Shown: positions 22,518-57,918 of the stretch, in pieces
How positions within the stretch are numbered: the first letter of the stretch is position 1
Layout: every line of letters begins with the position of its first letter
Source: Trinickia mobilis
GTDB lineage: Bacteria > Pseudomonadota > Gammaproteobacteria > Burkholderiales > Burkholderiaceae
Direction of reading: 5' to 3'
Length of the DNA: 64,000 nt
NCBI RefSeq assembly: GCF_017315705.1
Contig: NZ_JAFLRF010000002.1
Span: 186,001 to 250,000, forward strand
The notes under the pieces: generated by a model
The model's input: only the letters and a program-made list of their open reading frames with translations
Told to the model about the DNA's origin: nothing
The model's database searches: none
Made by a program: the position numbers and the translations under genes

Positions 22518-23228
22518 TCAAGGAAATCGCGCCCGCAGCCAATCGAGCTTGGTAGGCGGCAGGCTCAGCCTGCCGCCATAGCCGTCGTCGTCGCCATGAC
22601 CGTAATTCAATTTGCCGGGCTTTGTCGTGATCACGCGGGCATCCCAGAACCCATCGCCTAGAGAAAAATAGAATAAGCGCTCCGCCAGTAAGTCGCCCGT
22701 CGCGGCGGAAAATAGCTGCAACCGCATTCTTTTCTCAAAAAACGGGGCCCACGAGGCGACTTCGCATAGCCGTACTTCATAGCGCCGTCCGCCATCTTCG
22801 AATACGTTACCGCCCATTGTCTCAGTCATCATCGCGGTGTACTTCTCGCAACCGTACGGACCCGAGCTCCACACCGGACCGGAGTTCCACCACAGGTTCC
22901 AAAGGTTGAGCAACAGTGCGGCAATGCCGATCCGCAACGCCACCGTTGTGGCCAATTTGAATGTGCGGTGTGCACGGCCTGATGCCGAATCGGCGAATAC
23001 ATAGGCCCAGCTGCGTAGCAGGCAAATTGCAATGAAGGTGAACTTTATTGCGCGCCAGAGGAATTCTGGTACGAGCATGCTACGCAGTAGCGTTCGTTCG
23101 AGAAAGGGCGCTGTGTCCCAATAGTCATAAAGATCGTAGACAGCTTGTGCCATCCATACCAATGCGATCATCAACGTGATCGTGTATTTCAACTGCGGCT
23201 GCCTGATGGCTCGGATTAAAGAAGACAT
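22518..23228 (-). CDS. Predicted membrane protein downstream of DUF6402-type gene
   Basis: 236 residues from ATG 23228, overlapping the previous gene's end by 13 bp. Three hydrophobic segments lie at about 14-31, 48-68 and 88-108; the remainder is a soluble domain with EVRLCEVASWAPFFEKRMRL, FYFSLGDGFWDARV and a Gly/Asp-rich GHGDDDGYGG. No family is recognised. Overlap with the DUF6402-type gene suggests paired function, such as effector and immunity, but that is a guess. Base composition is clearly lower in GC than the surrounding pca genes. Confidence 0.6.
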   Translation of the reverse strand: MSSLIRAIRQPQLKYTITLMIALVWMAQAVYDLYDYWDTAPFLERTLLRSMLVPEFLWRAIKFTFIAICLLRSWAYVFADSASGRAHRTFKLATTVALRIGIAALLLNLWNLWWNSGPVWSSGPYGCEKYTAMMTETMGGNVFEDGGRRYEVRLCEVASWAPFFEKRMRLQLFSAATGDLLAERLFYFSLGDGFWDARVITTKPGKLNYGHGDDDGYGGRLSLPPTKLDWLRARFP

Positions 23229-24506
23229 TCGGGCAGCTCCACAGTAATCGGGGTTTTCAATTGAATGAATATTCGATCTGAATAAATCAGGAAATCGCCG
23301 CCTTGCTGGTGTTGCCGCTGCCAAGCTCGGAAATCTCGATTGCGGATCGGATAATAGACGCTGCGCTCCAACAACGGGAGTTCGGTATAAACCGGGTTGT
23401 CGGTGCCATTCCACAGGTGGGGGCGTATTTGCGGTTGCTGTCCGAACTCCTTACTTACATAGTCACCCGCCAACGATGCCGCCAGCCACAACATGTCATG
23501 CTTATTCCAATGCCCAAGATATTGCGAATGGCCATCACCATCATCCGCAAAAGAATAGTTTTCCTTGGCATAGACATAGATGTGCGTAATGTGCACGGTT
23601 CGCCGTATGTAATAGCGCACGCCATGGCTTTCGTGGCGCCCATAGGTTTGGCTTTCGACCCGCGCCAAACCGGTAGCGGCATAGAAATAGAAGTTGCCCA
23701 GCGCGGCGGATATATCGCGTGCGAATACCGAGCGCCAAATATCCACCTTACTATGCTGAAATTGAAACCGCGCATGCAATTGCTCAATATCCTCCCCGCA
23801 CAACGCCCAGGTAAGCAGCCAACCGCTTTTCATCCCCGTTCGATCGAAGAACCGCTGCAGCATCCCTGGCCCCTCGCCAGGCTTGCCTTTTAGCACCTCC
23901 ATTGCCCCTGAGCTATAAATGGCATTTTTTACTCAAATCATCGTACTGGCTCTGGATCAAGTCATGCCGCAACAACCACTCCAACTTTACGCTCTCGGTA
24001 TCTACCATGCTTTTTGGATACGGTTGGCCGAATTGATTGATGCCATAGGTTTCATCGTGCTTGGTCCGCGAATAATTAAGCTGACCAGCAAACCAGCGGC
24101 GCATCAATTTCGCCGAGACTTTCAGCCCGAGTGCATCCATTGCGCGGGGAATGTCTTGGATGTCAAACGGTGGCACGGTAGGTGCGGGCGGCGCGGGTGG
24201 CTTCGGCGCCGCCTTGACCTTGGGCATGGGCGGAGGCGGCGGAGTACGCACCCAATCGATGAAATCGAGAATGTCCGTCACCATTTTCACCACGCCATCG
24301 GTCTCAACCCGCGGCGGGGTCTTCACGGGTGGCGCAGGCGGGGGTGGCGACGCATGGATCAACTTCGGCGGCGGCCGCTCCAGCCTTAAGCACACGTCCT
24401 CGATCCGAACCGGCGTGCAGCCTTGCTCGCCTTCATGTAATTGCCAGCGCGGCCTGAATAAGCCATCCAGCTTGTAATACGGCGATGGGCCGTTTGTATT
24501 GTCCAA
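23216..24506 (-). pseudogene. DUF6402-family protein, frameshifted
   Basis: Two frames form one family member. The upstream frame (24506-23913) starts TTG after an AGGAGG site. It has a proline-rich linker, then QDIPRAMDALGLKVSAKLMR and INQFGQPYPKSMVDTESVKL. The downstream frame (to 23216) continues with GALGNFYFYAATGLARV-like text, QYLGHWNKHDM and WQRQHQQGGDFLIYSDRIF. They break at a run of six A residues (23925-23930 on the - strand). With five A the protein reads through as SKNAIYSSGAMEVLKGK. The family is common near type VI secretion genes, as I recall; no VgrG or PAAR gene is present here. It could be a pseudogene, a slippage site or a sequencing error. Confidence 0.75.
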
Positions 24507-24584
24507 TGCTTGCCTCCTCTCGTGTACACACAAACCGGAGATTGTAAGCATATCGAAATGAATACGCCATGCGACACCATGTCT

Positions 24585-54118: not shown

Positions 54119-55027
54119 ATGAGGCGGATGCCGAACTTCGTGCTGCTGCGCGCCTTCGAAGCAGCCGCCCGGCTCGAGAGCTTCGCGCTCGCCGCGCAGG
54201 AACTCCACCTGACGCCCTCGGCCATCAGTCATCAGGTGAAAGAACTGGAGGCGTATTTCGGCCGCCCGCTGTTCCTGCGCCGCAACCGGCGCATCGAGCC
54301 CACGCCCGAGGCCATGCGTTTGCTGGAAACCCTGAGCCGCGTATTCGATGTCGTGGAGACGGCATGCAGCGAGGTCACGCTCGCGCCGGATGCGCAGGTG
54401 CTCGCCGTGCATTGCGCGCCGAGCTTCGCGGTGAAGTGGCTAGGGCCCAAGCTGCCTGATTTCAACCAGACCTATCCACGTATCACGATTCGTCTGTCGA
54501 CGGGCGCGGAGCCGCTCGACCTCACGCGCGTTCAGGAAGTCGACATCGAGATCTCATACGGCGGCGCGCTCCATCGTCCCGGCCTCGAGATCGTTCCGCT
54601 CGGCCGCGAAGCCATCGTGCCGCTTTGTTCGCCCGCTTTGCTCGACAACGGCACGCCCTTGGCGCGGCGCATGAGCGAACTGACGCTGATCGATACGCCG
54701 CTGAGCCGCGTCACGTGGGCCGACTGGTTCGCGGCCAACCAACTCGACATGCCGACCACGCCTCGCCCTTCCTTCGATCGCGCCGCGCTCGGCATATCGG
54801 CCGCCGCGGACGGCATGGGCGTCGTGCTCGAAAGCACGCGGCTGGCCGAACGCGAGATCGCGCGCGGCGATCTCGTCGAAGTCCGCAGCGATGCATTCGC
54901 GCACTTCGAGCGGGAAACGCATTTTCTTTCTTACCGGAAAAACGAGGCCCAACTTGAGAAAGTTGCGGCGTTCAGGCTGTGGCTGCTGAAACGCGCGGGC
55001 GTCGAAGCGGAAGACCAAACGCATTGA
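54119..55027 (+). CDS. LysR-family regulator, GcvA-like
   Basis: 302 residues. PNFVLLRAFEAAARLESFAL and LTPSAISHQVKELEAYFGRP, then FLRRNRRIEPT and a typical effector domain. Divergent from the class II aldolase, probably its local regulator. Confidence 0.9.
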   Translation: MRRMPNFVLLRAFEAAARLESFALAAQELHLTPSAISHQVKELEAYFGRPLFLRRNRRIEPTPEAMRLLETLSRVFDVVETACSEVTLAPDAQVLAVHCAPSFAVKWLGPKLPDFNQTYPRITIRLSTGAEPLDLTRVQEVDIEISYGGALHRPGLEIVPLGREAIVPLCSPALLDNGTPLARRMSELTLIDTPLSRVTWADWFAANQLDMPTTPRPSFDRAALGISAAADGMGVVLESTRLAEREIARGDLVEVRSDAFAHFERETHFLSYRKNEAQLEKVAAFRLWLLKRAGVEAEDQTH

Positions 55028-55240
55028 AAGCGGCTTCCGGACGACATGCCGGCCCGCAGTTGCCCGTCGATTTTCTCCGTAAGAGATCTACCGTTACGGA
55101 ATGCTCCCAATCGCTGCCGGCTCCGCAACCTCCAGGTCCGTCAATGCGGGGCGGCCGCCGGCCTGCTGCTCGTCATCCTGCGCGCACCGGCCGGACGCGC
55201 GTCGATCATGGTGGCTGCGTACATCGGCTCCGCGAGCACC

Positions 55241-56401
55241 TCAGTGTCGTGGCTCGAGTTCCAGCCGCCTATAAGCACTCGCTCTAAGCGTTTGACAGAT
55301 CGCTTCCGCAGCAACCTCGCATGTTTCGGATACTCGGAGTATGCAGGCATTGCGATGTTGTTCCAATTCTTGCATCAGTTCTACTCCACGTGCTTCCCGA
55401 GCGAGCTTAATCAGCTTCGAATTTGCTGCCACCACTTGTTCATCTGAAGGGGTCACGTCATCCAAATCGTGTCCCACGGTGTCTTCACCACGTATCAAGC
55501 CGAGACTGCATAAAATTCCGTAAACGTACGTGCTATGATACCCATGCACCATGGCATATTCCATTTTCTGATTCTCCAGTAACGCGTTATACGTTTCAGC
55601 AACGAAATTCGGTCCCGGCATGAACCAGTCGCGCGAAAACACATCCGACAATACGGAACTCGCTGTTTTTGAAAAAATCGAATCGCGAGATTGAAGAAAA
55701 CGCTGAACCATGACAATCTCGCCGAGCAGATCCCAGTCAGAATAGGCAAGACACCAGGAGATGGAGTGGTCAATAAATCCACATAATTGCCATCGATCTA
55801 TACTGGGACAAAATGTCGAACGACCGAAATCGGTTAGATACATCGCCGCATGAGTGATTGCATATGCGTCTTCCCGCCGCATGAAGATGGGATGCGTGGG
55901 TTTATTAATGATGCTGCACGGGAGCAAATCCGAGAAATCTGGGATTGTATTGGAGTAGAGACCGTATAGCCATCTGATCTCCATCTGTCGAAAATTGGGT
56001 CGATCGATTGAATCAATATAGGGCGATGCAAATGCTGCCTGTACTGCGGCGTCGAAGATTTCATCCCGTTCGCCTAGACACGTCAGTGCAATATGAGCCA
56101 GGGCAATGCCTCCGACGGCTTGTGGGCTCGAAGCCAGCAGGAAGAGATGCCGAGCCGTGCGGGCGTGCGGGGATAAAATCGCGCTCAGCTCACTAATATC
56201 TGTTTGAAAACCGTAGTCTTCAGGGATACGACTTGCTACAAGGAGCAGCAACGCCGTTTCAGCAACCAGCTTATCCAGGATTTGATGTCCATCCAGCGCA
56301 GGATCATAACGGGATGACAATTCCACAAATCTGTCCAGATCCATCAGCAAGGATCGCGCGAATCTAAGAACGTGTGCAAGATTATCTCGGGTGTCGCGCA
56401 T
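55241..56401 (-). CDS. DUF6895-like helical protein
   Basis: 386 residues, soluble, mostly alpha-helical. EDAYAITHAAMYLTDFG (177-193), YSDWDLLGE (220-228) and YHSTYVYG (288-295) are the motifs that I recall, without confirmation, from the DUF6895 family seen mostly in actinobacteria. No signal or membrane segment. It lies 83 bp after a 78-residue peptide gene, with a terminator-like hairpin between. The ORF is AT-richer than its neighbours. Function unknown; a peptide-processing or peptide-binding role is only a suggestion. Confidence 0.7.
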   Translation of the reverse strand: MRDTRDNLAHVLRFARSLLMDLDRFVELSSRYDPALDGHQILDKLVAETALLLLVASRIPEDYGFQTDISELSAILSPHARTARHLFLLASSPQAVGGIALAHIALTCLGERDEIFDAAVQAAFASPYIDSIDRPNFRQMEIRWLYGLYSNTIPDFSDLLPCSIINKPTHPIFMRREDAYAITHAAMYLTDFGRSTFCPSIDRWQLCGFIDHSISWCLAYSDWDLLGEIVMVQRFLQSRDSIFSKTASSVLSDVFSRDWFMPGPNFVAETYNALLENQKMEYAMVHGYHSTYVYGILCSLGLIRGEDTVGHDLDDVTPSDEQVVAANSKLIKLAREARGVELMQELEQHRNACILRVSETCEVAAEAICQTLRASAYRRLELEPRH

Positions 56402-56417
56402 TGACGGGCTCGCTTGG

Positions 56418-56443
56418 AAAAATCGCCCGCTTCCTCGCGGGCG
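56418..56443 (-). terminator. Terminator/attenuator between peptide gene and DUF6895-like gene
   Basis: On the - strand CGCCCGC, loop GAGGAA, GCGGGCG, then ATTTTT: a 7-bp GC stem with U-run, 17 bp before the DUF6895-like start. Partial read-through would make the peptide mRNA exceed that of the protein. Confidence 0.75.
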
Positions 56444-56484
56444 GAAATGGCTAAGTGCGTTAAGTCCGGGGCTTATACGGCGCG

Positions 56485-56721
56485 TTACTGGCCGTTTCCT
56501 TGCGCAGCGGCACCTTGATTGATCACAGCAGCACCCGGGTTTTGGCCACAGACGATGACATAGTGATCGCCACCCAACGCGTACCAGCCGGCTTGAACGC
56601 CTGGATTGGTGATACTGTCCGCAGAAATGGATAGCAAATCGTTCAGCGTGGTGCTGGTATTCAGGATGTTCTTGTTGTTCATGTCAGTGACGAGGCGATG
56701 AATATCGCTGATGTTCGGCAT
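56485..56721 (-). CDS. Small peptide of 78 residues, possible modified-peptide precursor
   Basis: ATG 56721 with AAGGAGAT. Begins MPNISDIHRLVTDMNN with helical leader character, followed by a Ser/Thr-rich segment (NTSTTLNDLLSISADSIT) and a hydrophobic GVQAGWYALGGDHYVIVCG, one Cys at 58, and an Asn/Gln/Gly/Ala tail. This leader-core-like layout, with a strong SD and an attenuator behind, resembles RiPP or bacteriocin precursors. No transporter or known modifying enzyme lies nearby, so it is a hypothesis. Confidence 0.55.
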   Translation of the reverse strand: MPNISDIHRLVTDMNNKNILNTSTTLNDLLSISADSITNPGVQAGWYALGGDHYVIVCGQNPGAAVINQGAAAQGNGQ

Positions 56722-56748
56722 GATGGATCTCCTTGAGTGGTTGAAAAT

Positions 56749-56766
56749 CACGTCGGGATTGACGTG
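56749..56766. promoter_or_regulatory. Inverted repeat upstream of peptide gene
   Basis: CACGTC (56749-56754) and GACGTG (56761-56766), loop GGGATT, 28 bp before the peptide start. Possible operator or part of the 5' leader; the region upstream is AT-rich (A/T runs at 56813-56824). Confidence 0.4.
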
Positions 56767-56823
56767 ACAAGCAGTAAACGGGGAGTGCCTGCTTTTTTAT
56801 GAAGAATTGAGCAATTTTTTTTA

Positions 56824-56970
56824 TTGGGACCCATTCCGAACGGAAACGACAATTTGCTTGGCGCCGATCTCAGGGGCCGTCGCGCGAAACGCGACCCCGC
56901 GGCTTTGGGGTTCCCCATCGCCCGGCGGCGCACGCCGGGATTGCGGCGCGAAGAAGTGGCGCGACGTCAC
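56824..56970 (+). pseudogene. Helix-turn-helix (MmyB-like) regulator remnant, first 49 codons
   Basis: NLLGADLRGRRAKRDPAALG, FPIARRRTPGLRREEVARR is the N-terminal start of an MmyB/XRE-type regulator. After EEVARRH the family text ends and the frame wanders into unrelated sequence. It is a broken gene end next to the peptide region. Confidence 0.65.
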
Positions 56971-57066: not shown

Positions 57067-57918
57067 CTAAAACCAGACGGTAAAGCGGGTCCCGGTCGCG
57101 AGGCGGCTCACCGTCAACCGCCATTCGTGCGCGATGGCAATTTCCTTGCAGATGGCAAGCCCGAGGCCCGCGCCGTCGTGCCTCGCATCGGGCGCACGCC
57201 AGAACCGCTTGAAGAGAAACGGCAGGTATTCCTGCCGGATACCCGGCCCTTCGTCGCGAATCTGGATCGACACCTCGTCGATCCATAGCGATACGACGCC
57301 ATTGGGCGGCGACACGTTGATCGCGTTCTCGACCATGTTCTTGAGCATGATGAAGAGCGCACTCCGGTCGGCCCATATCGACGGCAGTCCCTTGCGCTCC
57401 TCGAGCTCGAGCTTGACCTGCTTCGCGTCCGCCTTGCGCGCCAGATAGGCGACGACTTCCCGCGCCACATCCACGATGCTCACCTGACCGAAGCTGAAGT
57501 TCTGCGACTCGCTGACTTCCGCGAGATGCAGCAACTGGCGAACCTGCCGCGCCATCAGATCGATCTCGCGCAGCAGCAAGTCCCTATCCTTGATCTCCGG
57601 TTGCAGCTCGATCTGGCCTCTGACCAGCGTCAACGGCGTTTGCAATTCGTGCGCCGCTGCCGCAAGAAACTGCTGCTGAACCGTAAAGCCGTTTTCCAGC
57701 CTGCTGAGCGCTTCATTGAAGGCGCTGATCAGCGGCTTGAAGACAGTCTTCCCCCTCGAGACCCGCTCGGTGGCGACGGCATACGGTCTGCCGCCGATGG
57801 CCACATGGGCGATCGTGCCGGCATCGGACGGGCGGCCGGCCAGCCACGGATCGCCGTTTCTCGCGTTCGCGGACGCCAACAACACGCGTCTGAGGCACAC
57901 GTTCGTGGCGTGGCTCAA
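57067..57918 (-). pseudogene. Sensor histidine kinase, truncated without membrane part
   Basis: 283 codons. Dimerisation and catalytic parts are present: FLAAAAHELQTPLTLV (phospho-His), NMVENAIN (N box), IRDEGPGI (G1), FKRFWRAPDARHDGAGLGLA (F/G2). The front only carries a short sensor-end piece (GRPYAVATERVSRGKTV) that then jumps to the kinase, with no transmembrane helices or HAMP. A TTG begins the frame. No response regulator is beside it. Confidence 0.65.

Follow-up and report, generated by a model that had tools for sequence, protein, structure and literature searches.

Peptide epimerases of lasso-peptide biosynthesis are among the closest described systems to the locus reported here. A DUF6895 protein is named as a lasso-peptide epimerase in the title of Shi et al. 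(2026, ACS Catal.). The lasso epimerase MslH (MS-271) belongs to the CapA family within the metallophosphatase superfamily and prefers its precursor at full length (PMC9266682). A search of the open-access literature found no papers on PF21836 or DUF6902, and DUF6895 surfaced only through a review citing Shi et al.

We analysed a 64,000-nucleotide stretch of Trinickia mobilis DNA (the window, positions 186001-250000 of contig C36) in which, on the minus strand, a gene for a 78-residue peptide is followed by a hairpin with a T-run and then by a gene for a 386-residue DUF6895 protein. We consider it probable that this locus is a minimal, horizontally moving RiPP-like cassette composed of a precursor and a tailoring enzyme, probably a peptide epimerase. 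By the title of Shi et al., their enzyme resembles the window protein in its DUF6895 name and in a ribosomal peptide as its likely substrate; the window enzyme differs from that lasso system in being paired with its own kind of precursor. A search of the T. mobilis genome (G000) found no match to the lasso B-protein PF13471, and only one of the 20 DUF6895 genomes has one (G122, where 35 residues on another contig score barely above the cut-off); a lasso-peptide reading of the window was therefore rejected. MslH is a peptide epimerase of the metallophosphatase superfamily, whereas a Pfam scan of the window protein returned DUF6895 and a weak DUF6902 match only, with no metallophosphatase model.

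A two-gene locus in a low-GC patch

The features of the locus and its neighbours, in window coordinates, are as follows.
54119-55027, LysR gene, both Pfam domains present
55233-56830, segment of ~1.6 kb shared with Paraburkholderia lacunae, 94% identical, flanks differ (blastn, alignment)
55241-56401, minus strand, 386-aa DUF6895 protein, putative peptide-tailoring enzyme (Pfam, alignment, toroid model)
56418-56443, minus strand, intrinsic-terminator-like hairpin followed by ATTTTT, 7-bp all-GC stem at 56424-56443
56485-56721, minus strand, 78-aa precursor-like peptide gene (ORF with good Shine-Dalgarno, dN/dS, top match in leave-one-out test)
56488-56544, minus strand, Gly/Ala/Gln-rich tail, residues 60-78 (sequence; pLDDT < 50)
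56545-56589, minus strand, putative core-like part, residues 45-59, GWYALGGDHYVIVCG, predicted beta hairpin
56590-56721, minus strand, leader-like part, residues 1-44 (alignments and low-confidence model; approximate boundary)
56729-56734, minus strand, Shine-Dalgarno AAGGAG, 7 nt before the peptide ATG, invariant in three copies
57067-57918, minus strand, histidine kinase that looks shortened, 283 aa in a stop-to-stop frame of 340

The original prediction described a small peptide gene with a strong Shine-Dalgarno sequence in a low-GC patch bordered by broken genes. The peptide gene was found as an ATG open reading frame with the ribosome site listed above, and the cassette lies at 52-55% GC. 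Elsewhere in the window 1-kb steps have about 59-72%, with the exception of another low patch at 23-24 kb. That second patch has 51% GC and ORFs within 22518-24551. The claim of broken neighbours held in part: the histidine kinase looks shortened by sequence comparison, and the LysR gene retains both Pfam domains. Homologues of the kinase in two genomes (G001 and G002) have stop-to-stop frames of 473 and 496 aa and align only from residue 51 or 58 of the window kinase onward; the affected end faces away from the cassette. No sigma-70-like promoter was found on the cassette (minus) strand, and no protease or peptide exporter is encoded inside the cassette.

Close copies occupy different contexts

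Close copies of the pair are present in P. lacunae (L001) and Trinickia terrae (L002, the same locus as L015 of G001), with proteins 90-97% identical to those of the window. The T. terrae match covers 55237-56821 at 91% identity (blastn, alignment), and the shared similarity begins ~110 bp ahead of the peptide ATG and ends 8 bp past the DUF6895 stop codon; on the upstream side, P. lacunae and T. terrae have a further ~60 bp in common that the window does not share. Because similarity stops on both sides of the 1.6 kb, the three genomes hold the pair in three contexts. Judged from these alignments, the computation shows the pair to move horizontally as a unit, and a 1.6-kb low-GC segment common to three different contexts fits the transfer that had been suggested from the window. 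We searched two relatives for an empty site and could read none, since their best LysR matches are only 39-40% identical and are separated from the kinase homologue, by ~261 kb in G002 and by lying on a different contig in G001. Phage carriage was considered and rejected, as the DUF6895 protein has no match in phage records and the peptide has no confirmed relative in viral contigs.

Both genes look to be under purifying selection at the amino-acid level. Over the three pairs of copies dN/dS (NG86) is 0.16-0.23 for the DUF6895 protein and 0.20-0.21 for the peptide, the latter resting on small counts (7, 8 and 15 nucleotide differences).

A related peptide precedes remote DUF6895 genes

Searches within the family, the order and the phylum found proteins scoring above the DUF6895 cut-off in 5 of 299, 4 of 399 and 11 of 398 genomes, respectively, and searches of three further orders in 1 of 249, 3 of 194 and 1 of 131 genomes; the samples overlap, the first three each including G000, and together give 20 distinct DUF6895 genomes. 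The set was supplemented with four plasmid records, from Gemmatirosa, Kitasatospora, Streptomyces and Pseudalkalibacillus. Matches below the cut-off (G051, G375, G387, G946, G958), probably due to chance, were left out of the counts, and so was H7, a plasmid match that is partial and falls outside the DUF6895 domain.

A related small ORF, identified by profile test or near identity, lies upstream on the same strand in 10 of the 20 genomes (G000, G001, G178, G204, G405, G483, G613, G644, G791, G1351). Only the leader-like part remains before a stop in G178, the core-like part is not clear in G204, and the enzyme ORF of G613 is short (215 aa). Six more genomes have an upstream ORF built of repeats (G365, G381, G413, G622, G656, and G628, cut by a contig end). 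No recognisable precursor was seen in the other four (G122, G820, G912, G1273), and none was found by profile on the Gemmatirosa plasmid.

The small ORFs are too diverged for BLAST clustering beyond close copies and are linked by profile only. For 15 loci, with candidates chosen by eye beforehand, a profile built without the tested locus was scored on all six-frame ORFs of that locus; L050, in no training set, was tested also without its near relative L049. The repeat-type loci, two close copies and L047/L048 lay outside this test. Lack of conservation of the pair had been named beforehand as a result that would refute the original prediction; the related upstream ORF ranked first in 12 of the 15 loci (the window, L012, L013, L034 with both its genes, L035, L037, L043, L046, L049, L050, L051, L056), failing in L011, L052 and L055. 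First-ranked ORFs scored between 7.3 bits (in L043, a weak result) and 45.7 bits (in L037), against 6.3 for the best other ORF in any locus; the window peptide scored 35.4 bits versus 2.3 for the next ORF. An earlier profile run with a length limit had missed L012. The loci with a first-ranked peptide include the Kitasatospora, Streptomyces and Pseudalkalibacillus plasmids, so that a related peptide stands just upstream of remote DUF6895 genes in Pseudomonadota, Actinomycetota and Bacillota. By these profile comparisons, the pairing of a small peptide with DUF6895 is computationally shown to be conserved in remote genomes, and together with dN/dS values of ~0.2 for both genes this places the locus beyond chance.

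A further profile (A3) was run over the 20 DUF6895 genomes; at E up to 0.1 it matched 10 times, in 8 genomes, and every match adjoins DUF6895. Nine of the matched sequences had served to train A3, which leaves the second gene of G405 as the only other match, and G204 and G178 went undetected although their ORFs had come first in the leave-one-out test; the informative outcome is therefore that A3 matches nothing away from DUF6895. Among 279 genomes sampled evenly from the phylum it matched three (G000, G483, G405), all DUF6895 carriers. Fine co-evolution is not supported, as a mirror-tree comparison of peptide and enzyme similarity over 10 loci was not significant (r 0.23, p 0.09).

No other gene family recurs widely beside the remote loci. 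Smaller shared sets comprise a Cupin_8-like gene in L011, L047 and L048, one family in L047-L050, and ketosynthase-type genes near L049-L051. The last three loci, on two actinomycete plasmids and one Bacillota plasmid, have polyketide/ketosynthase genes within ~10 kb, and a lipid or polyketide link is possible there. A VgrG-type T6SS gene lies ~1.3 kb downstream of the DUF6895 gene in L012 (8971-11415), and MFS transporter and O-methyltransferase genes lie upstream of the two-peptide locus L034 (4119-6554).

The peptide has a leader-like and a core-like half

The window peptide has no Pfam or NCBIfam match listed, and ten remote peptides have no Pfam match over the cut-off. Its AlphaFold2 model, of low confidence (mean pLDDT 53), places helices at residues 4-16 and 26-38 and a hairpin at 46-50/55-60, followed from residue 61 by a loose tail without secondary structure (pLDDT < 50). 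In alignments of the related peptides a loose motif, L..sgI(I/V)(N/D)...tL..L, recurs in the first half, and an aromatic and beta-branched stretch recurs in the second half in remote loci; no column is invariant across the aligned peptides. The core-like stretches read GWYALGGDHYVIVCG in the window, GYVLAWDKYVLVV in Kitasatospora, GYVFVWDKYVYDV in L056, WTFVSPNYVYKG in L037 and GPWYIYKE in L035. The core unit occurs twice per ORF in L035, L037 and L056, and L034 has two peptide genes. The leader/core layout proposed from the window alone reappears as a two-part motif, with cores duplicated or repeated in some loci, and the alignments and the low-confidence model would be compatible with separate leader and core roles for the two halves.

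The DUF6895 protein keeps a polar residue set

The assignment to DUF6895 in the original prediction was checked by HMM search and is correct: residues 36-298 of the window protein match PF21836 at E 3.8e-43 and 148.3 bits, against a cut-off of 23.8. The protein carries the conserved residues E48, Y180, H184, D191, G193, D224, E228, Y288 and H289. In an alignment of 18 enzymes, which covers part of the DUF6895 loci and includes three near-identical copies, G193 and E228 are kept in all rows, and E48, Y180, H184, D224, Y288 and H289 in 17, DUF6902-type rows included; D191 is replaced in two DUF6902-type rows. The exception is L048, in which six of the seven conserved polar residues are changed (E48D and D224E conservatively) and E228 is kept; this locus has lost the conserved His residues and has no recognisable peptide. 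In L047 the conserved His are, by sequence, apparently also absent, and no upstream peptide was recognised. No Cys is present among the conserved enzyme columns.

A sister branch has repeat-built precursors

Scans of three of the six repeat-type enzymes gave in each case a stronger match to DUF6902 (PF21843) than to DUF6895 (PF21836); from L036, L038 and L042 the two look like sister families. Like the window pair, the DUF6902 loci keep E48/Y180/H184/D224/E228/Y288/H289 and have a small precursor upstream; they differ in that their precursors are built of repeats (FSSGL, FTTSC, FSTSSF, FTSWSG). In the five peptides examined, F/L(S/T)(S/T) motifs are repeated at a step of exactly 20 residues in L038, L040 and L042, of 21-22 in L039, and irregularly at 8-22 in L036. 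Duplicated cores or genes and repeats of ~20 residues are as expected of a product-encoding segment. Downstream genes are common to five of the six loci (HD and ArgS families, with EamA in three), which indicates that the DUF6902 pair sits at a fixed chromosomal spot. These shared neighbours, scanned mainly in L036, are ordinary genes (HD, arginyl-tRNA synthetase, SPOR, GH3, ScpA).

The two-gene layout, low GC and transfer as a unit would also suit a bacteriocin or toxin guarded by DUF6895 as its immunity or antitoxin protein. We judge this very unlikely, because DUF6895 keeps an enzyme-like polar residue set over remote phyla, precursors of repeated units fit a substrate better, and in L055 (2539-5250) DUF6895 is fused to an APH-type kinase domain in a 903-aa protein.

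The predicted fold is an alpha/alpha toroid

The DUF6895 protein is confidently predicted to be an alpha/alpha toroid, its model being all-helical (pLDDT 81, pTM 0.81). No solved structure related by sequence was found in a PDB sequence search, and the best Foldseek match (E 0.021) was to armadillo repeats with a very poor superposition. VIA-align matched the model to a GH105 protein (Z 17.0), squalene-hopene cyclase (16.6), cellobiose 2-epimerase 5zig (15.2), N-acetylglucosamine 2-epimerase 6f04 (13.4) and the LanC-like GCR2 (3t33; 11.4, with many other toroids scoring higher), values of 11-17 that are modest given that mostly helical models without a clear relative typically reach a best Z of 14. 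The best toroid matches thus have unrelated activities (GH105, terpene cyclases). The N-acylglucosamine and cellobiose 2-epimerases share the toroid with the model; unlike the window protein they act on sugars, and at 8-11% identity they have no demonstrated sequence relationship to it. In the model the conserved residues lie on helices 38-56, 176-189, 223-236 and 276-303, and from the helix order we infer that they face the barrel centre.

A precursor with a tailoring enzyme of other chemistry, such as cyclisation, dehydration or another backbone or side-chain change, is an unlikely alternative that draws on the toroids of terpene cyclases and LanC-like GCR2, and on L011, where the DUF6895 gene lies near a LanB dehydratase gene and a Cupin_8 gene. 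LanC-like cyclases use a Cys/Cys/His set of zinc ligands, whereas the window family has no Cys in its conserved columns, making LanC-type zinc chemistry unlikely, and the published DUF6895 member is an epimerase by title. In L011 (3270-10488) the LanB dehydratase is full-length (Lant_dehydr_N and C) and ORFs of 125 and 164 aa stand upstream; this locus is possibly a larger RiPP cluster.

Toroids can also bind, and transcobalamin is among the fold matches, so DUF6895 might bind peptides or act in signalling without being a catalyst, and the peptide might be a pheromone. Near-invariance of the E/D/Y/H residues and the lack of any other family recurring beside most loci make this highly improbable.

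The intergenic hairpin

A GC hairpin with a U-run had been predicted between the two genes and is present, as a 7-bp all-GC stem followed by ATTTTT. Across the three close copies the stem is invariant and the loop varies. Taken alone, the hairpin does not exceed chance expectation: shuffles averaged 1.4 terminator-like sites where the scan counted 2, and the fold of the whole intergenic stretch is no better than shuffles (z +0.4). Of 17 intergenic stretches, a loose hairpin scan flagged only 8, among which are three mutual copies and one very weak case, so an attenuator as a general feature of the pair was rejected. For the window, the chances that the hairpin attenuates enzyme transcription relative to the precursor appear evenly balanced.

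A small ORF, a hairpin and a T-run ahead of an enzyme gene would also be the arrangement of classical attenuation, with the ORF as a regulatory leader peptide controlling a terminator before DUF6895. The probability we give this is very low, considering that fewer than half of the intergenic stretches have a flagged hairpin, that the peptide's amino-acid sequence is selected and related across phyla with duplicated cores, and that the ORF has no obvious run of one codon.

Proposed function of the cassette

The locus has what is generally expected of a RiPP biosynthetic locus, a gene-encoded precursor adjoining a tailoring-type enzyme and conserved with it as a pair. That the DUF6895 enzyme modifies the peptide we hold to be likely. 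That the chemistry is epimerisation, suggested by the title of Shi et al. and by fold analogy, is the least secure step and could go either way. A strong ribosome site would yield a precursor whose leader is helical and whose core is aromatic, beta-branched and hairpin-like; DUF6895 would bind the leader while the core sits in the toroid, where the conserved His, Glu, Asp and Tyr could take off and return alpha protons by acid/base catalysis, inverting residues from L to D. In this lineage the ribosome site and the hairpin before the enzyme gene may together keep the precursor in excess. Cleavage and export would depend on genes outside the locus, and an antibacterial or signalling role for the peptide is a guess.

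More tentatively, and with slightly less than even confidence, DUF6895 and DUF6902 may define an undescribed ribosomal peptide class, probably with D-residues, made by mobile two-gene cassettes with a cofactor-free toroid epimerase and helical-leader precursors of single-core, tandem-core or multi-repeat type, with lasso use as a side branch. If so, one small enzyme could introduce D-residues, or some other change, into a ribosomal peptide with neither radical SAM nor metallophosphatase partners, and a single enzyme family would serve several phyla. A DUF6895 or DUF6902 gene with a small ORF ahead of it would then be a handle for genome mining, the pair would offer a simple two-gene laboratory system for D-residue peptides, and a function could be assigned to two Pfam families that so far have none on record. 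The co-occurrence of relatives of the pair in at least three major bacterial groups suggests a little-known route to altered peptides.
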